DNA of 64,000 bases from assembly GCF_029168945.1 (NCBI RefSeq), contig NC_083605.1:22209280-22273279 (forward strand). The letters run 5' to 3'. The stretch comes from Cannabis sativa. Lineage: Eukaryota; Streptophyta; Magnoliopsida; Rosales; Cannabaceae. The notes below the pieces were generated by a model that had not been told where the DNA came from, ran no database searches, and worked only from the letters and a program-made list of their open reading frames with translations. A program made the position numbers and the translations under genes. Shown here in pieces: positions 15,720-40,993 of this stretch (position 1 is the stretch's first letter; each line of letters begins with the position of its first letter).

Positions 15720-15753
<34 letters not shown>
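15720..15753. repeat. (AT)n microsatellite, left flank of MULE-1
   Basis: About 34 bp of AT dinucleotides ending at the MULE-1 terminus GGGAATTTTAC. The right flank of MULE-1 (24385-24402) is also (TA)n, so the target-site duplication cannot be sized exactly. Confidence 0.95.
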
Positions 15754-15756
<3 letters not shown>

Positions 15757-15832
15757 AATTTTACAAAAATACTGCTTTTGGACCAAAACTTTACATTTAT
15801 ACTGGGACACGGCAAAAACAACTTTTGTACTG
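15754..15832 (+). repeat. Left terminal inverted repeat of MULE-1
   Basis: Pairs with the reverse complement of 24303-24384. Shared anchors in order are GGGAAWTTTACA, ACTG, TTATACTG, CACGGCAAAWACAAC and TACTG. Several TACTG motifs recur within it. Confidence 0.85.
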
Positions 15833-15880
15833 CCCAAGCCCAATTTCATTACTTTTGTACTGCCCAAGCCCAACATCATT
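15821..15880 (+). repeat. Two exact-length 30-bp tandem units next to the MULE-1 left end
   Basis: Units at 15821-15850 and 15851-15880 begin ACTTTTGTACTGCCCAAGCC and differ at two positions. Each carries the TACTG motif seen at both MULE-1 ends. Confidence 0.92.
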
Positions 15881-16055
15881 TCATTTCTACTGTGAACAGT
15901 AAAACACACGGGAAACAACCTTGTTCGTGTGTGAGGAGACGCCGGAGACGGAAATCACAAAGAAAAAACCATTAAATCCGGCGAAGAGTTTTTTGAAAAG
16001 GAATCAGAATTGAAGAACAAGACGTACAGAAAACTGTCCCAACAAAATAACAGAG

Positions 16056-16540
16056 GTAAACACAACAAACCCAAAAAATAATTTAATTCTTAAGAAACCA
16101 AAAAAAATTAAAAATAAAAAAACACAAGATTTAGATCTGAAGTTTTAAACAAAAAAACGAAAACACAACTGTGATATTCTTTAATTTATGATGCAAAAAC
16201 ATAAATGAGGGTTGTTCTATTGTTAATTTGACGTTTGCAACACAAAATGATTTCGAAAAAAAAAATCGATAAATTGGTACAATTATTCAAACACAACATC
16301 AGGGTTGTTCAAATGTTGTTTTGCGGTCAGTACTACAACAACATTCATACATATATGTATCAGACAAATATAATAATAAAAACTTAAAAAAAAATAATGG
16401 GTATTTCTGTTTGGTTGTTTTTGTGTTGTTTTATTGTTGTTATTTTATTTTTTTTGTTGATTTTTTTTTTTGTTGTTTTGCTATTGTTTTATTGTTGTTG
16501 TACAATTGTTTTAACATTAAATAAGACCCTGGAATGACAG
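16056..16540 (+). other. Probable leader intron of the MULE-1 transposase
   Basis: Donor AGAG/GTAAAC at 16056 and acceptor GACAG/GTA at 16540, three bases before the transposase ATG. The interior is T/G-rich with many TTGTTG and TGTTTT runs (especially 16400-16510). MULE-2 genes have leader introns in the same place, which supports the call. Confidence 0.5.
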
Positions 16541-16543
16541 GTA

Positions 16544-19156
16544 ATGGAACGTCTACCAGTACTCATCAAGAGCAATGGACAATGGAATGAAGATCACAAT
16601 TATGAGAACTATGTGGCTAGTGGAGAATTCATACCAACAAAATGCAAGTACGAAGAGCTACTGCAAATACTGGTTACTTCATTGGGGTGCGAAAACACCA
16701 GCACAACACTACAAATACAGTACCAAGCTAAAGAAGGAATACCACCGATCAAAATATGCAACGATCGAAGCCTCTACTTTTACTTGGAATTGAAAATGAA
16801 GGAAACAGATTTCACGACATATCCACTATGTGTGAACCAGCAAAACAACAACACAACACGTGCTGCAACACCAAATTCGATATCCACAACAACACCGAAT
16901 GAATATAATGTGGCAATGATCGAAAACAACACAACAACGCTTGAAAACAACATAACAACAACAGAATCATACACAACGGGACAGCAAACGGAAGAAGGGG
17001 AAAAGTCAGAAACAATAGAAGATGAGGAGGACAAATTCGACATAATTGACTATGCAAATCTGGTTGCTGAAGAAATGGTAGAACAACTTGAAAACACCAG
17101 TAAAACACTGGATCCAGAAATTGACATCAACAATGCAAAGTTAATAACAGACAAGCAACACCCCGAAGTGGAAAAAGGACAGGCATACAAAGACAAAGAA
17201 ACTCTAAAAAATGTCCTCAGCTACTACGCAATCAAAAACAACTTTCAGTACAAAGTGTGGAAGTCCTGCTCTCAAGAATACAGTCTGAAATGTGTTTACG
17301 AAAGCTGCAATTGGTCACTAAGAGCATCGAGAAATGGGCCAACAAACACATTCATAATCAGGAGGTTGGTTTTTAATAGTTTTTTAATGTTGTTTTTGTT
17401 GGCATCCTTAACAAATGACCTGTTTTCACAATTTGTACTGAAATACACATGATTGGTATCTGCAACAGATTTGTTTTAATAGTTTTTTAATGTTGTTTTT
17501 GTTGTTTTTTTTTTGTTTCAATAGGTTCTCAAATATGCACACATGCCCCATAAATATAAGGCATGAAGACCAAAGGCAAGCAACATCGAAACTGATAGGG
17601 GAATGCATAAAACCGAAGTTCTTGAACATAAAGACCAAGGCAACAGCGATGGACATAAAAGAGGAGTTGAAATACAGATTTGGCATCAAAATGAACTATA
17701 TGAAAGCTTGGAGAAGTAAGGAACATGCAGTAAACGACTTGAGAGGTAATGCTAGTGACTCGTACAACCTAATACCGAGTTTCTTACACATGGTGGAAAA
17801 AACAAACCCTGGATCATTTGTGGATCTGAAAACGGCAGAAGACAACAGCTTGCTCTTTGTTTTCATGGCGTTGGATGCATCCATAAAAGGGTGGGGAGCA
17901 TGCAGACCGATAGTTGTTGTGGACGGAACGTTCCTCAAAGCAGCTTATGGGGGAACTTTGTTGTGCGCATGCACACAAGATGCAGCAGGTCATATTTTTC
18001 CACTAGCGTTTTGTGTTGCAGATTCTGAGAATGACCAATCTTGGAAATGGTTCTTCAAAAAATTTAAAGAAGTGTATGGTGTACGGGAACACCAATGCCT
18101 AATTTCAGACAGAAATGAAAGCCTCATCAAAGCAGCGAGAGAAATCTATCCGAAATTGCACACGATTCTTTGCGGTTACCACATTTTGAGCAACCTTAAA
18201 ACAAGCTTCAAACAACATGCCGCCAAATACAATCCGCCATTCTTTGGAGCAAGAAAGCCTACACGGAAAAGCAATTCGAGTTCCACATGGCTGAATTGGA
18301 TGGATTGGACAAACGCATAAGACCTTACCTCAAAAATCGGGTATGAAAAGTGGTCAAGAATTCATAGCCAAAACAAGAGGTATTCCACAATGACCTCAAA
18401 CATATCGGAATCATCGAACGCCGCAAATTTGGCAGCAAGGGAGCTACCAATTACAACGCCGCTAGAATGCTTCGAGAGCATTGGTGCAACAATGGACGCA
18501 TACTAATAGGACAAAAGCACAAAACACCTTCACTAAGCTATCACCAACTGGAGAAGACATACTGTTGAAAAATTACACATACTCATTGAATCTGAAGGTA
18601 AAATATTAATTATGTTTTTTTTGTAGTGTTGTAGTGTTGTTGTAGTGCTGTTTCAATAGTTTTGTATTGTTGTTGTAGGAATTACAGCTATGTTTGATTT
18701 TTTTTTTTCAATAAAATTTAAAACAGGTTAAAGCAACAACAGATTACTTGTTTGAGGTAACAAGAATGAAAGAATCGTGGGAAGTAGACCTAGAAAAAAG
18801 AACATGCACGTGCAACAGGTTCCAAATAGATGAAATGCCATGTGGGCACGCAAAGGGCCGTGATGAGGAGATGAACATGGACCCGTACACCTACCGTTCG
18901 TATTACTACACAAAAAAAAATTGGTAGCAACTTATTCAAGGACAATTTACCCAATAGGACACCAAAGTGAATGGGAGGTACCGAAGAAGTGAAAAATATT
19001 ACGATCTTGCCTCCACATGAAAGAGTAAAATCAGGAAGACCAAAAACATTAAGAAGGAAGGCTGGATGGGAAAGGGATCAACACAACAAGTGCAGCAAAT
19101 GTGGTGAACTGGGGCATAACAAAAGAACATGCAGCAGAAGACGGAGAAGGGAATAA
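16544..19156 (+). pseudogene. MULE-1 transposase (MuDR type), frameshifted
   Basis: A Mutator transposase would cut and join the element ends. ATG at 16544; exon 1 runs to 17364, intron 17365-17524 (GT...AG), then exon 2. Order: N-terminal domain, Asn/Thr-rich linker, DNA-binding domain of the plant Mutator type (about 17150-17560), and catalytic core with VVVDGTFLKAAYGG, LISDRNES and CGYH (17900-18190). A second intron lies at about 18597-18726. A SWIM zinc finger follows (CTCN...MPCGHA, 18800-18857) and a CCHC knuckle (CSKCGELGHNKRTC, about 19095-19136). Frameshifts are visible near 18255, 18340, 18480 and 18990, so no full protein can be made. All family domains are still readable, so the decay is recent. 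Confidence 0.9.
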
Positions 19157-19671
19157 AAACAACAACAGAACAACAGTGGAAAAACAAAAGAAAACTACAC
19201 ATACGTTATGAGAATTAGATATTGAGGAATTTAAATTTCTGAAATACACAGGGAATACAGTTTTTTATTTGAAAAACATTGATTACATTGGGAATTGTTG
19301 ATACTCTAGATTGGATATTAAAAGATGTTGGATACTAAATTGAATATATATATGAAGTTTGTTATTGAAACAGTTTGTGTTTTTAATACTGAAATGAATA
19401 TTTGGATTCAAAAAAACAGAGAAACTATAAGAAAAAAAACAAAAAAAGAATGGATCTGAAATGAAAAAACAAACAACTTTAACATACCAACTTGTTTGTA
19501 CATAAAAATAATAAGAAAAAACATAAAAAAATAAAAGATTACATATTGTCCACACAAAGCGTAAGGAAAAACAACAGAACACCAATGTTTGTTTACGAAA
19601 AACAACATGAAAAACATTAAAACAACATTAAAAAACTATAAGAACAATGACAGTCTGATTGAAAAAGCAAA

Positions 19672-22600
19672 TCACTTCTTGGGAAGGCTAGGAGGGGCCT
19701 CGGATTCACTTTCAATGTTCTCAGTTTGCTTCTTCATCCCATAATGATAAAATAACGCAGCCAAACGATCGCGGTGAATTTCCACATCAAAATCAGAGGA
19801 TGGGATGGGTTTGCCATCAATGAAATACTCAGCAAATGATGCAACAAAAACACCACAATCACTGGAAAAAAACACAAAAAAAGACACTATGAGAACACTG
19901 ATAAAAAACAAAGTCAACAACAAAAAAATAAAAATACAAACAACCAGTGAAAAAACATTGAACACTAAACATAAAACTTACGCTGTGACCTGCTCGGGTA
20001 AACCATCAACAACAACAATAGGGAACGGTTCCATAGTGCTAAACTTAGTTTCGTTGCGAAGGCCTTTGAAGTCTAACATAGAGAAGTAATATGGTAAAAT
20101 AACAGAGAAAGGCTTGCAAGCCTCTTTGGCGACGATCATATACCTCCCAGAACGCAGTGAATTGTACAGATATATGCGCCTGTCAACTATGTTAAGACGA
20201 CCACAAATCCAATGATCCTGTAATTTTACATTGATAGGCATAACAACATGATCAACCAAATGCCAAGGAGTGGCACATAATATCTTACCACCTTGAATGT
20301 ACTGGGCCACATTGTGAGAAAGAGACAACACCGATATATCGTTGTTTTTCTCAACAAACCTCTCATACAAAGTTGTTATGCTAGAACAAAAGAGGCAATC
20401 AGTTGTGGTGACTTTGATTTTCGGCTCGGCTGAGTACATTATTTTCTTACGAAGATAATAGAAAATGATGTCAATGTGCTGAACAAACAGATAAAAAAAA
20501 GTAAGTGAAAAAACATTCAAACTTATAAAAAACTAACAGAACAACACTTAAAAACATTAAAAAAAATAGATAAAAAAAATAATATGTAAAATAATAATAA
20601 TAATAAAATAAAAACTTACAGAATTGGTAAGGAAACAATTAGGGTAGGCAAGGTTGTGAAACCACATCTTGTTGCTGATGTCCTCAACACCAAAACGAAA
20701 TGGCGGAAATATAGTGTCCTTACCCTTACAATACACATTAGTTGTTGTGCTAAAAAAAACAAATAAAAAAATATCAAAACAGAAATGAAAAAATAAAAAA
20801 TAAATAGAAAACAATAACAGATATACAACTGAAAACACCTACAAAAATACTTACTTAGATTTATGCTTTCTAAGACCTGAATCAACCCACTTGACAAAAT
20901 CAGCTTCCAATTGCGGATCAACAGGTTCACCAATCTTGTTGTCCAACGGGCACAAACCACGCACATATTTAACGACCTTATACACAGAATCATCAGGAGA
21001 AACCGAGGATGAACCTGATTTAGATGCACCAGAAGCAAGCTCAATGAATGGGGATTTCAAAACAGCTCCTTTCTTCCGATCCCTCTTTTGAGGACGTAAA
21101 ATAGGAGTCTCTTGAAAAACAACCATTTCAAGATCAGTCTTCTCAGAAGTCTCAACAGGAGCAGGGGCATGAGTTGAGGAACCAATCTAAAAAAGAGAAA
21201 GGATAAATAAAAAGACTTATGTTTAAATTTCAAACAGTACAATAAAAACACCATAAAAACAACAATATAATACCAAATAAATACAAATATAAAAAAAAAC
21301 ACATGAACACAAACCAAATTCTCCACAGCTTTAACAGCAGATGCAATTGTTGCATCAACATCAATGTTCTCCTCCCCACCTTGAGACTGATCAGGCTGAT
21401 AACAAAAAAAACAGTAAAACACTATTAAAACAAACACAAAACACAGAAACACACAAAAAAAAGCACAAACCAAAAATGATGTCCAAACAAGAAACACACC
21501 TGTTTGATCTCTGCAATAGGTTCCACAGGGTCAGAATTCTTGGCATCATCGACCTTGCCGGTATCATCATCCCTCGAAACAACCGCGGGGACAACAACAC
21601 CCTCATCGTTACGAACATCGCCCGTGTGAGCCTCATCCTGACCAGCACCAACACCATCTCCACCCAGATCATCATCATCATCATCAGTTTCATCGTCATG
21701 ATGATCATCTCCTTTGTCATCGTCGAATTTATCATCCTCGTCTTCCTCCGAAGTGGAATCTTCATCATCCTCATTTTCTGAAGTACGAAGAGCATCTTCA
21801 GACTGAGATCCATTGTGAGTGGGACCACCTTGGGATGACTGAGAAAAAAAAAATTAAGTAACTGTATAAAACAACATAAAAACACTACTAAAAAAATAAC
21901 AGAAAAAGTAATGACAATTTAAAAAAAAAAAACCTCAATAAGAATGTCCGACTTCTTGTTCATCTCAAAAACAGATTTCATAAGAATCCCTTGCCGTCGA
22001 CAACAACAGATAAACACTTTTTAAATTCCTCAAACTCAACTCGGGAGACATTCTCATGAGCAGTTGATGAAGAAGAACCCATCAAGCCAGGTTGACCAGC
22101 AGGCTTGGAACCACCTTTAATTTTGAATTTCACAGCCTCGGGAGTAGTCTCACCAGAGAAAAAATCAGTGAGGCTCAAACTCAATCTCTCAACGGAAGTT
22201 GGAGTGAGGTTTCTTAATTTTAACTGAAACAACAAAAACCAACAAAAAACAATATGCACATGAAACTGAAATTATAAAATAACAACAACAATAAAAACAT
22301 AAAGTATAAATAATGTATACAAAAACAACATTAAAACAACAGTGGAAAAATAATAAAAAACAACAGGATTACCTCTTTCAAAGACCGATCGAAAATGAGG
22401 GTGTTCATGACATCCATTTTCACCATACCCTCCTTGTCCTTGGGTAATTTAGGCCAATTCAAAATCCTTGGAATGCCAACATTTGAGTACAAGGATAGTT
22501 TCCCAATAACATACGGGCAACACTCGAAAAACCAGAATTGAATAGCCAAAGGAAAACCCAATAACCTGTAATACCCACCATCCTCGTCACTACGAACTAC

Positions 22601-23887
22601 CCTCTTATAACCAGAATCTATCTTACCCTTCAAAGAATGCATAGTGATATCAAAACAATGCTTGCCCCACCCAAATTCATTATATCGACCACTATCCACA
22701 ACATCTATTTCCTCAGACGAAACAACTTTACCCGGGGGACCACCTAACAAATAACACTGCACAAAATACAATACAGCCAACTTGACTGCAAGATCGTCGT
22801 TATCCTTAAGATTGTCAGCAATAAAAGCAGTCTGAATAGCACCCTTGGTAATTTTTTTGTACCCCTTAAAACAAGATTTGACCAATTCATTATCATCTTG
22901 CTTAAACTGATAAAAATCAGAATCAACATGACAATCTAACCCCGTGACCAACGCAAACTCTTCGATACTAAACCTAAGGTATTTCCCTTGGACACAAACC
23001 CAAAACTCCAACCCATTAGGCTGCTGAACCTCCCTCAACAGCAAACAATGCAGCAATTGGTAATGAATTATGTACTCAGGAATTCGAAGAAAATAACCAA
23101 ACACAGATTTTGAAAAAATTTCCAATTGGCTTTCAGTTAGAATTCTCTTAATGTCACCAAGTACAGAGTAATAACCAGATGTTACTACTCTAGAATGATA
23201 AAATTGAGATCGAGTGTACTTGCATTCCCAATCCTAAAAAACAGAACAATGAAAACACTGATAAAACACCAAAAAACACTACGAAAATAACAACAACAAA
23301 AAAACAACAAAAAAACATAGAACAGAATGCATAACATGACAAACCTCAACAATCCTATTAACAGGAATTTCTTCAGAAACACCTGATGATGGCAACACCT
23401 TCACAGGGGATTTACCCTTGCCCTAAAATAAAAAATAACAACACCAACAAAACAACAAATAAAAAATTAACAAAAACACATAAATAAATCGAACAATATA
23501 TATAAAACAATTACAAATACATAAACAAAAACAAACAAATACCCAGATATATGAACCTCAAATATCGAATTTAACAAAAAAACAAAAAACCTCAAAAACA
23601 ACAACAGATAAATAGTAAAATACCTTAACAGAAACAGGCGACTTAAGAAATTCAGAATCCAACTCAAAATCTGAGTCTGAATTTTCAACAACAGTTCGAG
23701 GTCTTTTTCCTCGAGTGTTCTTCGAAGGTCCAGCAATGGTTTTTCTTTTAACAGAAGGGGAAGTGGGGCTAGGAGGGTTCTCTTTCAGATTTTTTTTACC
23801 CATTTTTGATTTGGGTCTGGTTTTCTGCGATTGTTTTCTGGGTTTTGTAACTTTGGCCGGAGATGGTGATGAACGAGTAACGGCCAT
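19672..23887 (-). CDS. MULE-1 Ulp1-type cysteine protease with DUF1985 (one frameshift)
   Basis: Ten exons on the minus strand with GT/AG borders: 23887-23624, 23422-23345, 23233-22373, 22223-21934, 21838-21500, 21395-21315, 21186-20855, 20749-20620, 20478-19982, 19861-19672, about 1020 codons. ATG at 23887, then a basic Lys/Arg-rich N-terminus (likely nuclear). Exon 3 holds the DUF1985 region (RFSIEEFALVTGL), exon 5 is very acidic (Asp/Glu runs), and exons 9-10 hold the C48 peptidase. The catalytic set is visible: His in DHWICG, Asp in NIVDRRIYLYNS, Gln in LPEQ and Cys in ADCGVF. C48 enzymes cleave SUMO-like tags; the role in the transposon is unknown. Exon 4 is 290 nt and shifts frame near 21995, consistent with one lost base, so this copy may be newly inactivated. 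The phase of every other junction fits. Confidence 0.85.
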
Positions 23888-24302
23888 TATGAAGAACTAT
23901 GAAGGTATTTATAGACAAAAATAATAAAAATGGGAGGGAAAATGAGAGGGAAGTTTAAGATAGTGGGATGGGATTTGAAATTTTTTAAAATGAAAAAACT
24001 ACCCACTATTACAACCGTCTAAGCAAACTGAAAATGGGGAAGAAGATGAACAGTTGAGGTGAGAGAGAATACCAATTACAAAATTTAGATTCGAAAATAA
24101 TATAAAAAAAATAAAAGAAAAATACATAAATACAACACTTTTTGATCATAACACATAACCGTCAAAATCAAAACAATTACTTTTTTTTTATAAAAAAAAA
24201 AAACGTGGCAAAACCCTATCGTGACAAGTGGCAATGAAAAACAAACACCACTCACATCAAGCGGCTAAAGTTTTAAAGGCAGTAAACTGCCAAAAAAAAA
24301 AA

Positions 24303-24384
24303 AAACAGTATAAATGTTGTATTTGCCGTGCAACAGTATAAAAGTAATAAATTGGGAAAAAACAGTAGTGGGTGTAAATTTCCC
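24303..24384 (-). repeat. Right terminal inverted repeat of MULE-1
   Basis: Reverse complement begins GGGAAATTTACACCCACTAC and carries TTATACTG, CACGGCAAATACAAC and further TACTG motifs, matching the left end. Confidence 0.85.
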
Positions 24385-24402
24385 TATATATATATATATA
24401 TA
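24385..24402. repeat. (TA)n joint between MULE-1 and MULE-2
   Basis: Eighteen bases of TA dinucleotides directly between the CCC end of MULE-1 and the GGG start of MULE-2. It serves as flank and duplication for both elements. Confidence 0.95.
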
Positions 24403-24512
24403 GGGAAATTTCATTTTTTGGCCGTAATAATACAAGCCATATCAAAATTTATACCTTCCCTTAATTTGTACAAATTTAGTCCATTAATTACATAAACTTC
24501 CCATTTTACCCT
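24403..24512 (+). repeat. Left terminal inverted repeat of MULE-2
   Basis: Aligns with the reverse complement of 30669-30778 over about 110 bp with mismatches. Strong anchors are GGGAWATTTCATT, ATATCAAAATTTATACC and AATTTGTACAAATT. Confidence 0.88.
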
Positions 24513-24556
24513 TTTTTTTCAAAAAAAAAAAAATAAAATAGCTAAAATCTGAAATT

Positions 24557-24685
24557 GATCTTTCTCTCTCTCTTCCCTCTCTCTCGTGCACCACTCTCTC
24601 TCTCTCTAGAAAAAACTGAAAAATTTATCAAAAAATTTCTCTCTGTCCGTCCCACTCTCTCGTCCCTCTCTCTCTTCCCTCTTGA
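24557..24685 (+). promoter_or_regulatory. CT-rich leader at the left end of MULE-2
   Basis: Runs of CTCTCTCTCT just inside the inverted repeat and about 80-200 bp before the transposase ATG. A mirror copy in character lies at 30541-30655 on the other strand. Plant promoters often have such pyrimidine tracts near the start site; a role here is inference. Confidence 0.5.
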
Positions 24686-24916
24686 ATGGTTGTTTTCTCG
24701 GTGGGTGTTGGTGGAAAACCGAAGCACAACCCAATATCACTCAAGAATCTTACACCATTATAATGGGTAAGTTGTGTTTTAAGCATTTTATTTGACTTTA
24801 TGTAGTTTAAAATTGTCATATGTGTGTTATTTGTTGGAACTGCTGTTTTTTGGTCTAAAATTGTTGAGATCTGGCAGATCTGGTTTTCAGTCGAATTCTG
24901 GGTTTTCCAGTGTTAT

Positions 24917-25160
24917 CGATGATATGTCGATAATTTGTCGATGGTTTGTCGATGATTACAAAAGGAAAGGTCAGTGACGACCATTATCGACGTTATGTCG
25001 ACATAATGTCGACATGTTGTCGACAGTAAGCAACCAACATATTATTCACAATTTGTCGACATTTTGTCAATAGTTGTCGACAGCATGTCGACAACAAGCA
25101 TTTATCTTTTTTTAGAAGTTGTCGATATTTTGTCGACACCATGTCGACAAAATATCGATG
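24917..25160 (+). repeat. TGTCGAY array 1 in the transposase leader intron
   Basis: Twelve TGTCGA and a few TATCGA cores, many in runs at exactly 11-bp spacing (for example TGTCGATAATT/TGTCGATGGTT and TGTCGACATAA/TGTCGACATGT). The array is intronic and reads in the sense of the transposase. Confidence 0.92.
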
Positions 25161-25355
25161 CAAATGAAAAAAAGCCGTAAATAAAACATAACATAACATT
25201 AAATAAAGTTCATAAAAAAACATAACATAACATAAAATAAGATAAAAACATAACATAAAAAAAACATTAAAAAAAACAGAAAATAAAGTTCATAAAAAAA
25301 AAAACAAACATTAAATAAAACTCACCACAAGCCATAACATAACAAATTATTTTTT

Positions 25356-25679
25356 TTAAAATTTTTTGGCTTGTGGGTGAGCCTTGCAATACTTGCATAA
25401 TGTTCCAGGCTTCACCGGTTTACTGTTAAAGATGCCTAGTTTGCAACGACGGCATCCTTCGGGGAACCCTGGTGGTGGAGCCGGCCATACACTAGTTTTG
25501 CAAAAATGTGCTTCAAGTTGCCTGAACCTGAACTCGTTCCCACATCGTTCTCTTTCGAAAGCTCTTTGGGCGTCAAAAACTTTCTGCATTTCAGGAGTAA
25601 TTATGCCAACATCAGGCTCCTGCTTCAGCTCTTTGGGAGTTAAGATGGGGAATTTGCCGTTGTTCTTTCTTGGCGCCAT
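25356..25679 (-). CDS. Small Cys-rich protein, antisense inside the transposase intron
   Basis: A 107-codon frame from ATG at 25679 to TAA at 25356. I do not recognise a family. It starts MAPRKNNGKFPILTPKELK, has a charged middle (Glu/Arg-rich, residues about 35-60) and a C-terminal pair of CxxC motifs spaced C-X2-C-X15-C-X2-C (GCRRC ... LCKYC), which suggests a zinc ribbon, and ends in a Lys/His-rich tail. A TATA box (25772-25764) sits about 90 bp upstream with a CT-rich leader, so an independent promoter is likely. It lies between arrays 1 and 2 of the TGTCGAY repeat. It could be a MULE accessory gene or a captured host fragment. The frame has no damage. DNA binding is inference from the Cys pairs and basic content. 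Confidence 0.65.
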   Translation of the reverse strand: MAPRKNNGKFPILTPKELKQEPDVGIITPEMQKVFDAQRAFERERCGNEFRFRQLEAHFCKTSVWPAPPPGFPEGCRRCKLGIFNSKPVKPGTLCKYCKAHPQAKKF

Positions 25680-25763
25680 ATTTAGAACTTAAGAATAAGA
25701 GAAATTTTTAAGAGTAAGAGAGAAGTAGAAGACAAGAGCACTTATGAATAAGGAAGGGATTTG

Positions 25764-25772
25764 CTTTTATAG
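25764..25772 (-). promoter_or_regulatory. TATA box of the antisense small gene
   Basis: CTATAAAAG on the minus strand, 85-93 bp before the ATG at 25679, followed by a leader rich in CTT/TCT. The spacing fits a start site near 25735. Confidence 0.6.
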
Positions 25773-25855
25773 AGCAGTAAACATGTTGGGAATGTAGGAA
25801 AATTAAATGGTCATTAAATGTGTAACTGTACAGGTAAAACGCATGAAATGGTGTA

Positions 25856-26216
25856 TTTGTCGACTAAATATCGATACAATGTCGATATGTTTTCGACAAC
25901 ATGCAATTTTGTGACACTGCTAACTTATTTGTCGATACCATATCGACGTCATGTCGATAGGACACGTGTCGGACATGCAACGTGTCAGTTGGGAACGGTT
26001 GTTGGGAACGTAGGTAAAATTTATTAACATTAAATGTGTTTGTCGATTGAATGTCGATGGTGTGTCGATGTTATATCGATGGCAAGCATGCTTGGTGTGG
26101 TTGTCGACGTTATGTCGATATTATGTCGACACAATGTCGACAATTAGTGCCATAATTTCTGCTGTTGTGATTATCGACATTATGTCGATTGATATCGATG
26201 GGATGTCGATTTTTAT
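25856..26216 (+). repeat. TGTCGAY array 2 in the transposase leader intron
   Basis: Thirteen TGTCGA plus several TATCGA cores, again with 11-bp runs (26041-26080 and 26102-26145). It lies just upstream of the small antisense gene's promoter on one side and just before the transposase exon-2 acceptor on the other. Confidence 0.92.
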
Positions 26217-28108
26217 TTTTTTTGGGTGTTTTTTCCTTTACTCACCTTGTTTTTTTGGTTTGCAATTGCAGGAGAGAAAGTGTTCCTTGTTGTATCGTAC
26301 GATGGTGTTTGGTTATGTGAGAATTATAATTGGATCTACAAAGCAAATAGCAGCTTGACGTTGACAGTTACAACTGAGACAACCCTACAAGAACTGCGAC
26401 AAATTTTATATGAAGAGTTGGAAGTTGATCCGGTAGCGTATGATTTAAAGTTGGAGATTTGTTCCTTGTACATGAAGGGAAAAATGGTTGCGCCAGAGGT
26501 TATTAAGAGAGAACGCCAACTGAGAACGTTCTTAGAGATGAGGGCAACAATGTCAAATACAGAGTTTATGCCATTATTCGTGACCAAGGTGAGAAAAGTT
26601 GGGAATTCGGAGCCTACGCCGCCTACTAATCCTCTCCCTCGAAGTGTGGTAGGGTCTTGCGTTCCCGAAACAGATGTTGGGATTGGTGTGAATGAGGAGG
26701 TTCCGACCAATTTAGAGGTTCCGACCAATGTAGGGCAAGAACAAGAAGCGACAGGATTTCATCAGTTTGAAGAGTTCGATACAACCTTCTACAATAACGA
26801 TCCTATTGTAGATTTGAATATGGACGATGAACATGATTTGGCAGTCGATGAAGCCGTAGCGGGACCATCATTGAGGTTAGAGTGTGTACCGAGTAACCAA
26901 GGTACACAGCGAGAACGACAACCTCGTAGTGAAAATCGCACTACACCTGGAACTAGCAGTAGTCGACAAGGCAGAACTGAAGAACATGCTCGTCATGCAA
27001 CCTTCTCAACGTTCTCCTCTTTTGAAGTTTGTACCAAGTTCAAAGCTCCCATGTGGACAAAGGAAGATATAATGGAAAATCATGAGCTAACTACTTGTTT
27101 ACAAAGTAAGGAAGCAGGGGTGATAGAGCTTGGTAATTTTTATGAAAACAAAGAAGAACTGAGACAAGTAGTGGGTAGGTTTGCACTTAATAACAATTTT
27201 GAGTGGATGGTGAAGAAGTCATCCCCTGATGTGTTGTACGTTACATGCAAGGCTCCAGATTGTAAATGGAGATTGAGGGGGAGGAAGAAGATGCATTCTG
27301 ACAACTTTGAGGTCACTGTATTTCACAATGAACACACATGTAACTTGAATGCGAGACGTTCAGATCACCGTCAAGCAGCACCATGGGTAGTTGGCCACCT
27401 TATTAAGGGGAAGTACACCCAAGATGGAACTAAGTACAAGGCTAAAGACATACAGAGGGACATGTTTGACAACTATGGTATCAGTATGAGTTATGTGAAG
27501 GCGTGGAGGTGCAGGGAGATGGGACTTACGTATGCTAGGGGTACGCCTGAGTTTTCATACATGAAGCTTCCTGGGTACTTGTACATGCTGGAACAGAAGA
27601 ATCCAGGTACCATTACTGACTTGTACTTAGAGAATGAGCGGTTCAAGTACTGTTTTATATCACTCGGTGCATGTAGAAGGGGTTTTTCTTTTTGTCGTCC
27701 TGTTTTGAGTATCGATGGCACCTTCTTGAAGACGAAGTACGGCGGTATAATGTTAGTTGCTGTGGCATACAATGCGAACAACCAATTGTTGCCGGTTGCT
27801 TATGGTATCGTTGACAGTGAGAATAACGACTCATGGACGTATTTCTTACAGAAGTTGAGGGTAGCAATTGGCGTGATTGAGAACTTAGTGTTTGTGTCAG
27901 ATAGGCATCAAAGCATTGATCATGCTGTTGAACTCGTTTTTCCCGAAGCAGTCCACTGTGCATGCTATCACCACATTGTTATGAACGTGAACGCCAAATT
28001 CAAGACTGATGCTTTTCACAACCAAATATATAATGTTGCTTACGCATGGTCGAAGACTGAATGCGATAGAGAGTTCGAGAAGCTTAGAAAGATGAATCCG
28101 GCCAATAT

Positions 28109-29573
28109 GTCTCTGAGCTGCTCCATAATTACGTTCTGACCACCCTTCAGCTCTACATGGCTGGTCTCGTATGCCTTCTTCAGCTCGACATGAGCAGCAT
28201 ACAGACCCTGAGTGTCAGCCTCGATCCTATCCAACCTCGCCACTAAATCAGTGTACTCGGCACCCCGAACGCCTGATGAAGATGGTGCACTGGGCTGAGG
28301 TTCTGAACCAGTGGCCTGAAAAAATATATATCAAAAAAATACGATAAGCATACGATAATTCCACAATGTAACAAATATCACAAAACAAAAACAATAAAAA
28401 ATAAAGACATAAAAAAAAAGTTCCAAAAATTGGTACCTGAGTGTCTGTTTCCTGAGTGTCTGGGACCTGAGTCTCTGGTACCTGACTACCTGCCTCAGCC
28501 TCTGTGTCATCCACACCATCATCAACCAGGTTCTCACCATCGTAAGATATGGTCCTCACAAATGCCTCCTCCTCTGTCCGTGGAAGTAGCCCCTTCACCA
28601 CTTCAAGATTCTGTTTATGGTTCAAAAAATATCAAAATAAAACCATTTAGCATTTATTACAAGCATTTATGTTAAATAATTATTCTGAACATAAGTGAAA
28701 ATCATACCCGTCTAGAAAATAATGCGCTGACGTCTTTCTTCCCAATATCGCCTTTGCTCGTCCAGCTAAGCATCCTGGGGAACCGAATCCCGTGATTCGT
28801 GCCATACCTCTTCCCAACCTCCAAAATGGCCTCGTACGCCCAATATTGTACTGCAGGTGCGAAGCCATATGCTGTGTATTTGCACTCGTGCTGAACATCC
28901 GAACTCAGCTTCTTCTCGTAGTTGGCCTTCTATTTCAACATGTCTTTTTGAAGCGAGTGCATGAGTCTGGCGAATGAGTGCTTCCCCCCCAAGGAATCCG
29001 GAAGAAGAACTCGAGGTCTTCCACATATCTAAGTATGTGAAGCGTAATCAGCGCGTTTGCCTCGCGGCCCAGAAGCACTGACTCCACAAACAAGCACAAG
29101 CCGAGCTTGTACAAGTCTTCCGGGTTCTGACAGTTTGTGAACCTATCTTGGAGTGCTTCTGTCTTCACACTATCAGACCGGTTGAAATATTTGTTGATCA
29201 ATCGGTCTGACCCTGAGCGCGCGACCTGCGCAGCCTTCTCCTCTTCTGTTGGCCCCGAGGAGAAGTCCAGGCCTGTAATGAGTGCAAACTCCAGCACTCC
29301 GAATCTGACCTCCTTCCGACCAACGTAAAACCGCATCCTCAACTCCTCCTGAGCATCCACTTTCATTTTGTGGAGCATCAGCTGGTGAAATAACACCGAG
29401 GAGAATGTCAAGGGTACGGCATTCCAAAAGCTGCCGAAACGGCTTTCCTTCGCCGTGTTATTCAAGTTGTACTCCTCAAACCGAGCTTTGATTTTTGCAA
29501 AAATTTCGGTGCCTCTATATGTGACGCGGCCAGTAAAATGCTCGGGTGCTGGAATTATTAGTCTGGGAGCCAT
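28109..29573 (-). pseudogene. MULE-2 DUF1985-type gene, truncated before the protease domain
   Basis: ATG at 29573 directly after an acceptor TTTTTCAG. Exon A (29573 to about 28709) holds the DUF1985 region (FGVLEFALITGLDF). It then shifts frame in a seven-base G run on this strand (28984-28990) and meets a TAG near 28932, after which reading continues as YTAYGFAPAVQYWAYEAI. Exon B (about 28611-28437) encodes an acidic, QVPETQ-repeat stretch. Exon C (about 28317-28109) encodes a coiled, charged segment (VARLDRIEADTQ). The gene then runs into the transposase at about 28108. By comparison with MULE-1, the missing part would hold the Ulp1 catalytic domain. Not functional. Confidence 0.85.
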
Positions 29574-29621
29574 CTGAAAAATCAAAAACCAAAAAAATTT
29601 AAATGTCAAAAAAGTTAAGAA

Positions 29622-30175
29622 ATGTCGACATAACATCGACATCATGTCGATATTCTGTCGACATTATCAAACATTCATAATTGGTCGACAAACCGTCGAC
29701 ATACAATCAACATGCTATCGACATTATCATAAGAACAGTGACAAACGACCAACATCGACAACTTATCGACATACAGTCGACAAATTGTCGACATTATACC
29801 AATTAACTACCATACGAATCAACTCTAACTTCCCTATCGACAACCTATCGACATATAGTCGACAAATTATCGACATTCTAACAGTAAACTACCACAAGAA
29901 TCAACTACAACTTATTATCGACAACCAATCGACATATTGTCGACAAATTGTCGACATTCTAACAGTAAACAACCATAAGAATCAACTACAACTTATTATC
30001 GACAACCTATCGACATATAGTCGACATTACATGGCAAAACTACATAACATCAAACAAGGTAAAACCATCGACAAATTGTCGACATGATGTCGACAACCTG
30101 TCGACAACAATGTTCAAACACACAAACAGAAAACTATATATATTGATATCCTATCGACATTTCATCGATAACGCT
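29622..30175 (-). repeat. TGTCGAY array 3 in the DUF1985-gene leader intron
   Basis: About 28 TCGA cores, mostly GTCGAC or ATCGAC. Read on the minus strand (the gene's sense) it gives TGTCGACAATT/TGTCGACTATA/TGTCGATAGGT at 11-bp spacing, the same unit and sense orientation as arrays 1 and 2. Confidence 0.92.
29752..30030 (-). repeat. 81-bp higher-order tandem repeat within array 3
   Basis: TCGACATA recurs at 29766, 29848, 29929 and 30010 (82, 81, 81 bp apart). Each unit has four phased TCGA cores, then a spacer containing AGAATCAACT. Confidence 0.9.
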
Positions 30176-30434
30176 GTAAAAACACACAAACACCATTGAA
30201 ACATATCCAACATATACAACATGCAATAATTGACATCTAGATTCGCATATACAATCTAAAACAATGTTATCTGAAGAACATACACAAATTCCCATTGAAA
30301 TTTCTAAATTTTAAACAGAAAAAAACTTACCGTTGGATTGGATTGGATCAGTGGTTCGTGGTCGTGGTCGTGGATCGCCGTGGGCCGCCGTGGGTCTTCG
30401 TCCTCTTCGTCGTCGTCGGTCGCCTTGGGTTTTG

Positions 30435-30530
30435 TGGGTTTCGTGGGTTCGTGGGTTCGTGGGTTCGTGGGTTCCTGGGGTGAGGCCGGTTCGTGGGGTG
30501 AGGCCGGTTCGTGGGTTCGTGGGTTCGTGA
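30435..30530 (-). repeat. G-rich 8-bp tandem repeat, GTGGGTTC
   Basis: Six or more near-perfect GTGGGTTC units on the plus strand, interrupted by TGGGGTGAGGCC, in the untranslated first exon of the minus-strand gene of MULE-2. Confidence 0.85.
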
Positions 30531-30540
30531 GGGGTGAGGA

Positions 30541-30655
30541 GGACAGAGAGAGAGAGAGAGAGAGGGAACGTTTGAGACAGAGAGAGGAGGACTGGTTCGT
30601 GAAGAGAGAGAGAGAGGGAACGTCAGAAAGAGAGAGGGAACGTCTGAGAGAGGGA
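30541..30655 (-). promoter_or_regulatory. CT-rich leader at the right end of MULE-2
   Basis: GAGAGAGAGA runs on +, that is CT runs in the sense of the minus-strand gene, at the mirror position of 24557-24685. Confidence 0.5.
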
Positions 30656-30668
30656 AATTTTAATTTAG

Positions 30669-30778
30669 GGGTATTTTAGGAATCTTTTAAAATTAGAGGA
30701 ATCAATTTGTACAAATTATAAAAGGGTATAAATTTTGATATAGGTTATATTATTAAGGGGCAAATAATGAAATATCCC
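30669..30778 (-). repeat. Right terminal inverted repeat of MULE-2
   Basis: Reverse complement begins GGGATATTTCATTATTTGCC and contains ATATCAAAATTTATACC and AATTTGTACAAATT, as at the left end. Followed by TATATATATA. Confidence 0.88.
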
Positions 30779-30789
30779 TATATATATAC

Positions 30790-33358: not shown

Positions 33359-34979
33359 ATTACTAAAATTAACTTCAAAATATTAATGAAAAAAAAATTC
33401 ATATATTTTAAAAGTTAATTATGTTGCTAATTCAATTTTAATTAGGTTAGACTAATATAATTAACCTAATACAATTATTTAAATAAGGCAAATGGGTCTT
33501 CACAATTGGGGTAGTTCATGTGCGGGAGAGCTGGGCTTAGTATGTCGTACCCACTACTATTGGCCCCCTAACTCTCACACAAGGCCCAAAAGAGAGGAAT
33601 TTAACCTTTAAATAAACAATTGTTATTCATTGAATAAGCCCAAATCTAATTGGGCCTAAATAAATTTACTTATGTCAAAATTTATTTTAGCAACCTAGTC
33701 CATTTACTTAGTAAAACTTAAATGGGCTTCCTATATGCATCTAAGCCCAATAGCAAACATATAGGCTCACATAGGTCAAATAATTTGGATGGGCCCTATC
33801 ATGTTACTACGTTTACACAGATGAAAGAAGTACAAAATTTACCTGTTACAAATTATTTATAGGATCTATTGACAATTGGACTATGATTAAAATCAGATCA
33901 TTGGATCTGTCAACAAGTTAATCATAGCAATTTAGATCAAATAAATAATAGGTTTGTTAAAAAAAAGTTTTGAATAAACAATATAAATAAACAAACAATG
34001 TCCATGTAGCAGATGTGAAATAAGATATTAATATAATTAAATTATTATTTTAAACTAACCAATTAAATTTTGAAAATTTAGGGTTGTTAAAACCAACCTT
34101 AAAAATTCATCAAAATTTAAAATTCAAAAATGAAAACTAATTTAAAATATCTAAGTATATTTTGAATTATTTTTATCAGATTAAATTAAATATCAAATAA
34201 GATAAATGATTTGAAAAAAAAAAAATATCTTCAATATCATCTTCTAATTTTATAATTTAATAAAATTAAAATAATAAAATAAACCAATTTTAAAATAGTT
34301 AGATAATTATTATTTTAAGAATAAAATAATAAATAAAAAATAATTACCTTAATTATATGTCAAAATATCTCAAATTAAGCAATATTCAAATTTCTACAAA
34401 AATATCTAAGTTATTTTAATATTTAAAATATAATTTATAAATTTCTAATAAGTAAAATGATATAAAATAGTAAAATATCATTTTTAAACTTATAATTTAT
34501 AAATAATTAAATATTTAACAAAATAATAAATTTTTGAATTTGAAAATATTATGGTTAGAATATCTATAAAAATATCTAGGTTAATTTCAAATTTATTAAT
34601 TATTTAATTTGTCATAGAAGATAATATTAATATAATATTTCAAATAAAAAAAATAAAGTTATCTTTTAATTTAAAATATGTTAAATATCAAAATATCTGA
34701 TCTTATAATTAAATAATATATAAATATTAAACAAATTAATAAATTTTTAAATCTGACCATAATTTAAAAAATAAAATAATCAATTTTTAAATTTAAACTT
34801 CAAAATATCATAAAATAATAATATTCTATTAAAAATAAATATTATTAATTTAAAAAATGATATTTAAGTTTAAATATATTTAAAAATAATATTTTATTTT
34901 AATTTTGAGGTTTGAAAATTGGAAAAATCGAATTTTGGGAAAAAATCCCACAAAATTTGGAAATTGGGTGGAAAAATCG

Positions 34980-35230
34980 TTACTGCCAGCAAGGCTGCAG
35001 TTGCAGCCCACGAGAGGCTGCTAGCAAGCCTCAACGCGCGCGGACAGGAGGAGCCAGCTGAGGAAACTCGACATTTGCAGGGTTCCTGACCGAGTAACCT
35101 CGGTCAGCTGTAGGGTGACGCGCGCGGGACAGCAGGGAGCAAACATGTTCAGACAGTGAGTTGTCTGAAGCCCATGCACGCGCGAATCCTTCTTGTCTGA
35201 AGGGTCTGTGCGTGCGATTGAGCATGGGCA
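34980..35230 (-). other. GC-rich patch in the leader of element C
   Basis: About 250 bp rich in CGCGCG and CAGC inside an otherwise AT-rich leader, about 240 bp after the primer site. E has a 120-bp counterpart (47468-47590) and B a remnant (about 2519-2575). The short ORFs here are by-products of GC content. Confidence 0.7.
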
Positions 35231-36626
35231 TCCCAAAATTTCAAAAATTCATAACTCCTTCAATTTTTATCGGAATCGAGTTCTGTAAAAACCAAAATTG
35301 CTTAATTTTTCACAAGGAATCCAAATAAAATATTTTCAGAAAGAAAAAAAATATTTTTCACGGAAAAATTTTGTACAATACATACATTCATCACATAAAC
35401 CATCATGAAACCATCCAAATCAACAGACACATCATTTTAATTCATATTTCATGAAAGTAAATCATTACTATGGCTTTGAGGCCAGTTGTTGGAAATATTT
35501 TACCAGGATCTAGATTTACTAACAAGTATGTTTCATTAACATCCTAATATGAATTTCTAAAACAATGAAATTAAACACATATACAGTTTCAAAAAACCTT
35601 ACATTGGGTGCAGCGAAATATAATGACTCCTTCCGTTCAAATCTCTAGCCCTTGATTCCTTTCTGTAGCAGAGCATTATCAAGATCTGAACCTGGATCTC
35701 TTTCTCTCCTTCTTGAGCCCGATTCTCCTTCTTGTTGATTGGATTCTTCATAGTCTTACACACTATGATTGAGATACCACTTGATGTGCGTGGGCACTCA
35801 CTCTATCACTCAAGGTTCAAAATTATGAAGAAGAAAAGAAGAGAGAAGTGGTTCAGCCTAATAGAAAGAAGGCTCAGGAAAAATTTTCTGAAAGTTAAAT
35901 TTCATCAATCTTTAAGTGTGAGTCATCACTATCTATTTATAGGTAACCACCTAGGTTTAGGTTAGATTTAATTAGCATTAAAATAATAGAAAAATAAATG
36001 GTAAATTACACTAGTGTGGCCGGCCATGGATTGTTATTGGGACCCACTTTGCAATTTTGTCATTTTGTCATTTTCCCATCTCATTTTCTCAAAAACGCCA
36101 ATTTTCTAATTTAACTACTTAAATGCCAATTCCAATTATTTAATAACTAAAAATTAATTATGAAATAATATTGTCATTTAATATATTTATTAATTAAACA
36201 TAATAAAGTCTCTTAATTAATAAATAAAATCTAGAATCTCTTTTCTTCACAATTTTGCCATTGCTTAGTGAAAATTCATAAACTAGACATAGTCTAATTT
36301 TAGAATTATAATTGATTAATTAAAATCAATTAACTGAGTCTTACAGGTAGTATGGTCTCAACTAGTATGGGGACCATGGGCCTATATAACCGAGCTTCCA
36401 ATAAGCTGATCTAGAATTTACCAAGTAAATCCACTAACTTATTAATTCCTCATTGCATCCACTCATAGAACTTGAAATTGCACTCTCAGTTATATAGAAC
36501 GCTCTATATGTTCCACGATATAGATACGCTATTAATTATCCATCGTTATAATCCCAATAATCAATGATCCTCTATAGATGATCTACATTGCATAGGGATA
36601 AAATTACCGTTACACACTTTCAATGT

Positions 36627-38528
36627 ATTTTTGTTGGATATTATTTTACCAGGATCTTAGATCTACTCACAAGTATGTTTATTAACATCCTAAATATGAA
36701 CTTTCTAAAACGATAAATTAAACACATATAAAGTTTAAGAAACCTTACATTGGGTGCAGCGGAATTATAATGACTCCTTTCGTTCAGATCTCTAACCCTT
36801 GATTCCTTTCTGTAGCAGAGTATTATCAAGATCTGAACCTGGATCTTCTTCTCTGAATCCTTGATGCTGAATCTCCTTTGCTGATGATCTTTCTTCACGA
36901 TCTTCCTCACTATGATTGAGGTATTGCTTGATGTGTGTGGGCACTACTCTAATCACTAAGAGAGGTTCGAAATATAGATGAAGAATAGAGAGAGAGAGTG
37001 GCGGCTAGAGAAGAGAGTGGAGGCTCAGGTTTTTCTGATTCAGAAAGTGTAATTTTCCTGAAGCCTTCACTATCTATTTATAGCATTCCACTAGGGTTAG
37101 ATTTGAATTATATGGCATTAAAATAATGAAAAAATCATTTAAAAAAGATAACATAGGTGGCCGGCCCTGGCTAGGTGGACTGGGCCTTGATTTTTGCAAT
37201 TTTGCAATTTTACCACCTTTTGTATCTGATTTTCTCAAAAATGCCAATTTCCTAATTCAATCATTTAAATGCCAATTCTAACTATTTAATAACTATAAAT
37301 AATTATTAAATAATATTGTCATTTATCATATTTATTAATTGAACCATACAAAGTATCATAATTAACAAATATGCCCCTGTTAACTCTTTCTTTACAATTT
37401 CGCCCTTACTTAGTGAAAATTTCACAAATAGACATAGTCTAATTCGTGAATTATAATTGATTAATCAAAACCAATTACATGAGTCTTACAAGCAATATTA
37501 TCTCAACTAGTGGGGGGACCATGGGTCTATATAACCGAGCTTCCAATAAGTAGATCAAGAATTTAGCACTAAAATTCACTAACTTATTAATTCTTCGTTG
37601 AATCCACGCATAGAACTTAGAATTGCACTCTCAGTATATAGAATGCTCTATATGTTCCACCATATAGACACATCATTAGTTATCCATTGTTATAATCCTA
37701 ATGTGATCAATGATCCTCTATATGAATGATCTACATAGTAAAGGGATTAAATTACCGTAACACCCTACTATGTATTTTATCCTTAAAACACTTGACCCCG
37801 TATAAATGATATTTCAGCTTATGTGAAATGAGATCTCCACCATTTATTTTCGTTTGGTCAAGCTCGAAGGAAATCATCCTTTGCTTACTATTTGCCAGAT
37901 AGAAGCTATAGATTCCATGTTTATGCTAGCGCTCCCACTCAATTGCACTACCGTGTTCCCAAAAAGTATGTATCACCCTGACCTAAAAGTAGGCTTAACT
38001 AACAATTCAAAGGAACACGAATAGCCTTTCAAGATTGAGCCTAATCATAACAGGATTAAGATCATTTGATCTAGGATCAACTTGACGATATTGACTTGAA
38101 TAGATTTTACGGTAAGTTTAATTAAATCTAAGTCAAAGTTCAATATCGGTCCCTTCCAATGCATACTCCATGCATCCAACCTGAGCTTTACTTTAACCAA
38201 TGTTCTGGAAAGAACATAGTATTTCTCCAAATACAAGTAAACTCTTGTTGTAGATTATCATATCAGTAAAACCCTGTGTCTGATAAATCTAGGAAACTTT
38301 ATTCACATAGTCATGTTTACTTTCCAATGTGATGACAGCACAATAAACATGATCAAGTATGTGAAAAGGGTTTAAGATGAATTTATAAATCAATTAGACA
38401 AGCAATCGATAAAGTGAGCCAAAACATACACAAATGAATGAAAAATACTTCTGTTTCTTTATTGATGTTGAATAAAATAGATTACATTGAAATGGAGTTT
38501 TATTTAGGGCATAAAACCTAACAATTTT
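36627..38528 (-). mobile_element. Solo LTR inserted in the LTR of element C (first)
   Basis: LTR 36632-38523 (1892 bp; TGTTGGATAT...CCTAACA on +) with perfect duplications ATTTT at 36627-36631 and 38524-38528. It belongs to the same family as its host LTR and lies in the same orientation. A solo LTR forms when the two LTRs of a full element recombine. Confidence 0.95.
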
Positions 38529-39093
38529 ATCCTTATAACACTTGGCCACCTATAAATGATATTATAGTGAACTAATATAGTCATTAAAATGACCGCTCTA
38601 TCATTTATCTCTATTTAGCAAGCTCAAAGGAAATCATCGTTTCACTTCTAAATACCTATAGAAGCTATAGATTCCATATCTATGATTAGCGCTCCCACTC
38701 AATTGCACTACCATGTTTCCAAAATGTACGTATCACCCTAATCAAAAAGTAGGCTTAACTAACAAATCAAAGAACATGTATAATACTCTTGAGAACGAAC
38801 CCAACCATGTCAGGATTCAGATCATTTGATCTAGGATCAACTAGGTGATATTGAATTGAATAGATATTACGGTAAATTTATCATATCTAATCAAAGTTCA
38901 ATATCGGTCCCTTCCAATGTATACTCCATACATCCGATACTGGTAAACTTTACCAATGCCCTGGAAAGGACATAACACTTATCCAAGGTGTAAGCATACC
39001 TATCGCTGATTATCATGCCAGTCTAAATCCAATGAGCTAACAAATCAGGGAATTAAATTTTCGAACATGTAAACATGATTATATTCTAGTGTG

Positions 39094-40993
39094 CTGACTG
39101 TTGGAATTTATTTTACCAGGATCTTAGATCTACTCACAAGTATGTTTATTAACACCCTAAATATGAACTTTCTAAAACGATGAAATAAACACGTATAAAG
39201 TTTAAGAAACCTTACGGTGGGTGCAGCGGAATTAAATGACTCCTTCCGTTCAGATCTCTAACCCTTGTATCCTTTCTGTAGCAGAGTATTATCAAGATCT
39301 GAACCTCGATCTCTTTCTCTGAATCTTTGATGCTGAAACTCCTTTGCTGATGATCTTTCTTCACGATCTTCCTCACTATGATTGAGGTATTGCTTGTTGT
39401 GTGTGGGCACTACTCTAATCACCAAGGTAATTTCGAAATATGAAGGAAGAAGAGAGAGAGAGAGAGGGTGGCGGCCAAGGTAGAGAGAGAAAGGCTCAGT
39501 TTTTCTGATTCAGAAGTGTAATTTTCCTGAAGCCTTCACTACCTATTTATAGTATTCCACTAGGGTTAGGTTTGAATTATTTGGCATTAAAATAATGAAA
39601 ATATCAGTTTAAAATGCCTACAAAAGTGGCCGGCCATGGCTTATTGGGTTTGGGCCTTGCTTTTTGCAATTTTGCAATTTTAACACTTTTGTATCTGATT
39701 TTCTCAAAAATGCCAATTTTCTAATTCAACCATTTAAATGCCAATTCTAACTATTTAATAACTATAAATAATTATTAAATAATATTGTCATTTATCATAT
39801 TTATTAATTGAACCATACAAAGTATCATAACTAACAAATATGCCCCTAACAGCTCTTTCTTTATAATTTCGCCCTTACTTAGTGAAAATTTCACAAATAG
39901 ACATAGTCTAATTTGAGAATTATAATTGATTAATCAAAACCAATTACATGAGTCTTACAAACAATATTATCTCAACTAGTGCGGGGACCATGGGTCTATA
40001 TAACCGAGCTTCCAATAAGTAGATCAAGAATTTAGCACTAAAATTCACTAACTTATTAATTCTTCGTTGAATCCACGCATAGAACTTAGAATTGCACTCT
40101 CAGTATATAGAATGCTCTATATGTTCCACCATATAGACGCATCATTAGTTATCCATTGTTATAATCCTAATTTGATCAATGATCCTCTATATGAATGATC
40201 TACACTGTAAAGGGATTAGATTACCGTAACACCCTACTATGTATTTTATCCTTAAAACACTTGACCTCGTATAAATAATATTTCAGCTTATGTGAAATGA
40301 GTACTCCACCATTTATGTTCGTTTGGTCAAGCTCGAAGGAGATCATCCTTTTCTTACTATTCGCCAGATAGAAGCTATAGATTCCATGTTTATGCTAGCG
40401 CTCCCACTCAATTGCACTACCGTGTTCCCAAAATGTACGTATCACCCTGACCTAAAAGTAGGCTTAACTAACAAATCAAAGAACACGAATAGCTTTTCAA
40501 GATTGAGCCTAATCATAACAGGATTAAGAACATTTGATCTAGGATCAACTTGGCGATATTGACTTGAATAGATTTTACGGTAAGTTTAATTAAATCTAAG
40601 TCAAAGTTCAATATCGGGCTCTTCCGATGCATACTCCATGCATCCAACCTGAGCTTTACTTTAACCAATGTTCTGGAAAGAACATAGCATTTTTCCAAAT
40701 GCAAGTAAACTCTTGTTGTAGATTATCATATCAGTAAAACCCTGTGTCTGATAAATGTAGGAAACTTTATTCACATAGTCATGTTTACTTTCCAATGTGA
40801 TGACAACACAATAAATAGGATCAAGTATGTGAAAAGGGTTTAAGATAAATTTATAAATCAAATAGACAAGCAATTGATAAAGTGAACCAAAACATACACA
40901 AATGAATAAAAAATACTTCTGTTTCTTTATTGATAAATAAAATTGATTACATTGAAATGGAGTTTTATTTAGGGCATAAAACCCAACACTGAC
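39094..40993 (-). mobile_element. Solo LTR inserted in the LTR of element C (second)
   Basis: LTR 39099-40988 (1890 bp; TGTTGGAATT...ACCCAACA on +) with perfect duplications CTGAC at 39094-39098 and 40989-40993. Same family and orientation as the first. Confidence 0.95.

Follow-up and report, generated by a model that had tools for sequence, protein, structure and literature searches.

Introduction

In Arabidopsis, the transposon-encoded protein VANC21 binds the motif YAGTATTAY, and VANC6 acts on AGTTGTCC or AGTTGTAC; the targets of both proteins form dense arrays of uniform orientation in introns and other noncoding regions, where methylation is lost (PMC5735166). A related arrangement is described for KAONASHI (KI) Mutator-like elements (MULEs), whose KIU genes are VANC genes with an Ulp1 domain (PMC13317346, PMC2528002, PMC6117577). 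Here, we analyzed a 64-kb stretch of Cannabis sativa DNA (C5:22209280-22273279; hereafter the window, in whose positions features are given unless stated otherwise) containing a MULE copy with three arrays of the 11-bp phased motif TGTCGAY. An earlier note on this DNA had proposed a VANC-like recognition system with another motif, and this proposal was supported by a DUF1985 protein homologous to VANC21, by the sense-oriented intronic arrays, and by a change of motif at a paralogous gene (L056).

The Cannabis family resembles VANDAL21/VANC21 and VANDAL6/VANC6 (PMC5735166, PMC10398659) in being a MULE with a VANC21-homologous DUF1985 protein; in carrying short motifs, densely and in the same orientation, in introns and noncoding parts with tandem-repeat turnover; and in that related families use differing motifs, here with GCGAY at one paralogue. 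As in KI-MULEs, its DUF1985 gene carries a C48 peptidase domain and lies on the other strand from the transposase, but the family has terminal inverted repeats (TIRs), whereas KI-MULEs are described as non-TIR (PMC13317346, PMC2528002, PMC6117577). This type of system is already known. What sets the Cannabis family apart is the grouping of its motif in fours, the CpG in its core, and its TIRs: TRTCGAY holds a CpG, unlike YAGTATTAY, AGTTGTCC, and AGTTGTAC, and the quartets may likewise distinguish the family from VANDAL arrays. An Ulp1-like domain is a further difference from VANDAL/VANC. No description of TGTCGAY, of the Cannabis family, of its target motif, or of groups of four was found in literature searches that were confined to open-licence papers and did not include the motif among their terms. 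According to Sasaki et al. in 2022, the VANC domains DUF1985, DUF287, and Ulp1 reportedly come and go across eudicots; motif sequence, density, and helical periodicity are said to set specificity, and non-autonomous copies to matter. In view of that account, the 11-bp phase is not presented here as new.

Phased TRTCGAY arrays lie in the introns of both genes

TGTCGAY was matched 74 times in the window, compared with a mean of 5.98 and a maximum of 15 in 100 shuffles (the palindrome TGTCGACA being counted on both strands), and 71 of the 74 matches fell within the three arrays. Array 1 (24914..25163, plus strand) consisted of four TRTCGAY clusters with steps of about 11 bp, starting at 24914, 24985, 25054, and 25120. 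Array 2 (25858..26214, plus strand) comprised five clusters, starting at 25858, 25930, 26041, 26102, and 26172, and array 3 (29620..30170, minus strand) eight clusters of three or four units; within array 3, positions 29754-30026 are made up of an 81-bp higher-order repeat in 3.4 copies. The ratio of observed to expected CpG was 1.9-2.1 in the arrays, compared with 0.58 for the window as a whole.

Arrays 1 and 2 were located in intron 1 of the transposase gene (24767..26271, plus strand) and array 3 in an intron of the opposing DUF1985 gene (29574..30329, minus strand), both introns being predicted from splice signals. The earlier note had described the two as leader introns filled by the arrays. 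The first description fits the DUF1985 intron, which lies in the 5'-UTR leader, but not the transposase intron, which interrupts codon 2: exon 1 ends with the start codon (ATG at 24763) and the first base of codon 2 (24763..24766, plus strand), directly followed by the donor GTAAGT. Nor do the arrays fill the transposase intron, since a 107-codon open reading frame (ORF; 25356..25679, minus strand) sits between arrays 1 and 2. The donor and acceptor strings of the transposase intron were present in 7/7 and 6/7 long elements of the family, respectively; for the DUF1985 leader intron, the exact acceptor was found in 5/7 and the exact donor in 2/7.

The same pattern was observed when 30 copies of the transposase intron, namely the window's own and 29 others, picked by their transposase, were brought into one orientation. 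All 30 contained arrays, with 21-30 exact sites and 4-8 quartets each. Among their 800 exact sites, the next exact site was at +11 in 60.3% of cases, at +10 in 1.3%, and at +12 in 0.7%. TGTCGAT occurred 388 times in the sense and 42 times in the antisense orientation, and corresponding counts in six elements were 74/11 for intron 1 and 62/5 for the DUF1985 leader; both the phase and the claim that each array reads in its own gene's sense were thus borne out. Across the 770.7 Mb genome, three units at 11-bp spacing gave 1786 + 1826 matches (palindromic units scoring on both strands and overlapping triples separately), compared with none for a backwards control; the same search at 10-bp spacing returned 0 + 0.

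Units are grouped in fours

The unit had been given as TGTCGAYNNNN. Its 11-bp phase stands, but TRTCGAY describes the natural unit better, and most units form runs of four, with non-array sequence between the runs. When strict TRTCGAY units at 10-12 bp steps were counted in the 30 introns, 296 runs were obtained, of which 29, 34, 24, and 208 contained one, two, three, and four units, respectively; none contained five and one contained six. The leader introns of seven elements gave 64 strict runs (13, 15, 8, and 28 of one to four units), none longer. With mismatches allowed, four-unit runs numbered 209 out of 272 in the introns and 54 out of 70 in the leaders, and five-unit runs 46 and 5; the strict count is preferred, as allowing two in-phase mismatches overestimates five-unit runs (46/272). 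In the window itself, 13 of the 17 clusters had exactly four units, one singleton being excluded (p 3e-10 under a geometric run-length model, a value limited by the non-independence of clusters with a common origin, such as those in the 81-bp repeat of array 3).

The core is conserved while the spacers vary

Alignment of the 30 copies (L022-L051) gave a mean identity of 98.4% for exon 2 and 92.7% for the intron. Diversity was 0.040 in the core and 0.139 in the spacer, compared with 0.081 in other intron sequence, 0.058 in the 107-codon ORF, and 0.016 in exon 2, and none of 4000 permutations yielded a core diversity as low relative to the spacers. By core position, it was T 0.002, G 0.102, T 0.006, C 0.020, G 0.052, A 0.004, and Y 0.093; the second position, where G or A occurs, is in fact R. 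Because choosing sites on a consensus can bias such a comparison, the analysis was repeated with sites defined in the window copy only and variation scored in the other 29, which gave 0.039 for the core and 0.185 for the spacer. The conservation of the core relative to the spacer claimed in the earlier note was therefore confirmed, and the check on related copies that it had called for gave lower diversity in the core together with a predominant 11-bp step.

The arrays belong to a MULE family encoding a VANC21 homologue

The window copy (~24401..30780, no strand assigned) is an internally deleted MULE with TIRs and TA-repeat DNA on its flanks. The left arm (24422..24511, plus strand; 90 nt, 76% complementary) is mirrored by a right arm at 30669..30758 (minus strand). 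Relative to L019, about 2.4 kb is absent at 28100-28104, so that the copy lacks both the C-terminal end of the transposase and the Ulp1-like part. Terminal repeats on both sides, as well as the three-array layout, were common to seven long elements selected by their arrays (L010, L011, L012, L015, L016, L018, and L019), five of which measured 8.7-8.8 kb, with 6.8 kb for L012 and 7.3 kb for L015. Target-site duplications of about 8-9 bp could be read by eye at several element ends.

In longer copies, the gene for a MuDR-type transposase is accompanied, on the other strand, by one for a DUF1985 protein that includes an Ulp1-like peptidase domain. In the window, the truncated exon 2 of the transposase (26272..28139, plus strand) matched MULE, Transposase_mut, and DBD_Tnp_Mut. 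The DUF1985 exon (28974..29573, minus strand) encodes a homologue of VANC21; its frame departs from those of its relatives near the end, after about residue 194. Four of the eight relatives of this protein are named Cannabis sativa proteins, and one relative, P0005, has a 100% identity match in the same Cannabis genome. For the product of the 107-codon ORF, three of four relatives are likewise named Cannabis sativa proteins, annotated as hypothetical. The Ulp1 C48 domain of the L019 DUF1985 gene scored 40.2 bits (cut-off 20.7) in this one copy when two exons were joined at a predicted splice site, each exon scoring below the cut-off singly. DUF287 was not found in the scanned L019 exons or in P0005, and two middle exons matched no family whatever. 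The DUF1985 gene of L011 is broken, and its comparison was left unused.

A genome search with the truncated transposase gave at least 73 matches, most with at least 95% identity (71 scored out of 3226 candidates), and a search with P0005 at least 132 (132 scored out of 1817). Among the matches listed, 44 of 70 transposase matches had a DUF1985 match within 12 kb downstream, on the opposite strand in 44/44. A satellite shared outside the family was considered and rejected: among 100 of 3612 places, nine of ten clusters lay in elements with the family repeat at both ends, and the tenth (13.38-13.39 Mb) had it at one end in L014 and at neither in L013. Three repeat-bounded, array-bearing elements without a transposase match were also observed (L009, 534-4255; L015, 74-1726; L016:9655 to L017:2128). 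Such deleted elements would be expected if unsilencing of deleted copies matters, although these were found via their arrays and are no test of it.

A paralogous DUF1985 gene carries a different core

In L056, the leader intron of a DUF1985 paralogue with 55% identity over 85 residues, the core is GCGAY instead of TGTCGAY. Its runs comprised 4, 4, 4, 4, and 3 units with one in-phase mismatch, or 4, 1, 2, 1, 4, 4, and 3 with exact CGAY, and 0/5000 random placements were as clustered. Genome-wide, three GCGAY at 11 bp gave 615 + 574 matches, compared with 23 + 22 for the control. Five AGCGAY places on C1, out of about 100 listed and judged by position only, were 310-350 bp from listed DUF1985 matches.

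Many TGCGAY-type places had no nearby DUF1985 match among the matches listed; at C1:36386168-36391553 and similar places, again with no DUF1985 match near among those listed, phased TGCGAY clusters were about 1.1-1.4 kb apart. Upstream of another DUF1985 gene, L053 (C1:15490900-15492599) contained dense, partly palindromic CGACCWT repeats with strong lags of 10, 21, 30, and 31, perhaps the target array of another family.

Other features of the window

A second MULE (15753-24391) adjoins the studied element directly, with a TA repeat at the junction. Homology to VANC21 extends to the DUF1985 protein of this second MULE (22334-23125, minus strand; phmmer E 1.6e-6); its introns are GTTGTT-rich and hold one TGTCGAY match. 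MULE-1 of the window was rejected as a second phased array: lag 11 did not exceed lags 3, 6, or 8 in one stretch, was below lag 6 in another, and was absent in a further one, so its repeats were taken as low complexity. Two short tandem-repeat signatures at 1549-1671 recur at 9767-9889, 8218 bp apart, and might mark the pair of long terminal repeats that bounds a retroelement. A 27-bp tandem repeat (10892-11035, 5.3 copies) has a unit divisible by three and thus possibly lies inside a coding frame. Several direct-repeat families of 60-300 bp, with spacings near 1145 and 2469 bp, were observed at 34223-40000.

Discussion

The DUF1985 protein, together with the placement, density, and orientation of the arrays and the changed motif at one paralogue, leads us to regard the arrays as the probable targets of an anti-silencing protein of the VANC type, one that is sequence-specific and encoded within the transposon family itself. 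The DUF1985 part, homologous to VANC21, would bind the TRTCGAY words, and the 11-bp spacing would put four of them on nearly the same face of the helix. Several copies of the protein, or one assembly, could then bind a quartet jointly, and this joint binding would set both specificity and strength. The bound protein might remove silent marks from the noncoding control region that lies in each gene's first intron, and this would keep the transposase and DUF1985 genes expressed; deleted copies that retain arrays would be unsilenced too. Binding, demethylation, and a role for the Ulp1-like domain are what we infer from the comparison with known systems.

Several observations weigh against this proposal. 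The Cannabis family has clear TIRs, while those of VANDALs are degenerate or lacking, and 26 of the 70 transposase matches had no DUF1985 partner among the matches listed. The steps in L056 were 10, 11, and 12 in about equal numbers, looser than in the window arrays, and among six other DUF1985 upstream regions, runs of the TRTCGAY-array kind were observed in L056 only: the phased repeat of L053 is a different one (lag 10, z 11.5), L052 had lag 11 as its strongest (z 5.0) in a GTTGTT-rich sequence, and lag 11 was not raised in L054, L055, or L057 (z 0.8, 1.2, and 1.1). The structure model of the DUF1985 protein had a mean pLDDT of 69, its VIA match an rmsd of 6.1, and Foldseek gave no match below E 1, an absence there not being counted as evidence. 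Moreover, shared ancestry among the 30 copies limits the independence of the conservation test, and L009-L019 were selected by their arrays, so that the presence of arrays is tested by the 30 introns only.

Other explanations can be considered for the arrays. Rather than being DUF1985 targets, they might bind the transposase or regulate transposition as enhancer-like internal sites. The L019 transposase does carry DBD_Tnp_Mut and SWIM zinc-finger domains, and some deleted elements, found via their arrays, retain both arrays and ends. MULE transposases bind terminal repeats. The window arrays, however, begin about 500 bp or more inward from the element ends, and the ends themselves are nearly motif-free (1 site in 4765 bases), for which reason subterminal transposase sites were rejected; in addition, the core is altered beside a paralogous DUF1985 gene at L056. 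We therefore consider this explanation unlikely.

The arrays could also be passive tandem repeats without function, spread by a young, high-copy element, with the phase as a relic of an ancestral 11-bp unit. Turnover is plain, as the spacers vary more than the remaining intron, and array 3 contains the 81-bp higher-order repeat; VANC target repeats likewise turn over, according to the sections used of PMC5735166. Passive repeats, however, would not readily account for the near-invariance of T, T, and A in the core (diversity 0.002-0.006, against about 0.14-0.18 in the spacers), for an orientation that tracks the sense of each gene, or for strict runs that exceeded four units in 1/296 cases in the introns and 0/64 in the leaders. 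A comparable arrangement built on a different core at one paralogue and the CpG enrichment of the arrays relative to the window (1.9-2.1 versus 0.58) also argue against them, and their probability seems low. Sites for a host factor, acting as an intronic enhancer or as a splicing or transcription element that boosts both genes, would fit arrays in first introns in gene sense; yet the core differs at the gene of a sister family, a change that an element-encoded partner explains more easily, and we regard host-factor sites as improbable. Finally, the small cysteine-rich protein whose ORF separates arrays 1 and 2 is a most improbable binder despite its location and its CX2C-X15-CX2C pattern (kept in 5/5 aligned relatives), and was rejected for its weak constraint (pN/pS 0.68 in 18 same-length copies versus 0.36 for transposase exon 2; an ORF of at least 100 codons in 19/30 copies, or 8/30 with start and stop both placed as in the window), the lack of any Pfam match, and an unconfident model (pLDDT 58).

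Returning to the VANC-type reading, a more specific version of it can be put forward tentatively. A fixed unit of four helically phased sites might be read by the VANC-type proteins of this lineage, the code being kept as the letters of the word change. Sister families might retain four units at about 11 bp while exchanging T for G directly ahead of CGAY, so that a single position would write family identity, and the core CpG could let the same contact read methylation, producing a methylation-sensing switch that flips with the element's own protein.

If the proposal is true, a large, young Cannabis transposon family would possess its own sequence-specific anti-silencing system with a defined recognition word, and the VANC system, described in Arabidopsis, would extend to a crop MULE that has TIRs. 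The grouping in fours hints at a stoichiometry, and the CpG in the core makes direct reading of methylation by such proteins testable. The family would also offer a natural comparison between sister proteins whose targets, TGTCGAY and GCGAY, sit on a similar scaffold; guided by the solved VANC21-DNA structure, such a comparison could reveal the residues responsible for specificity.
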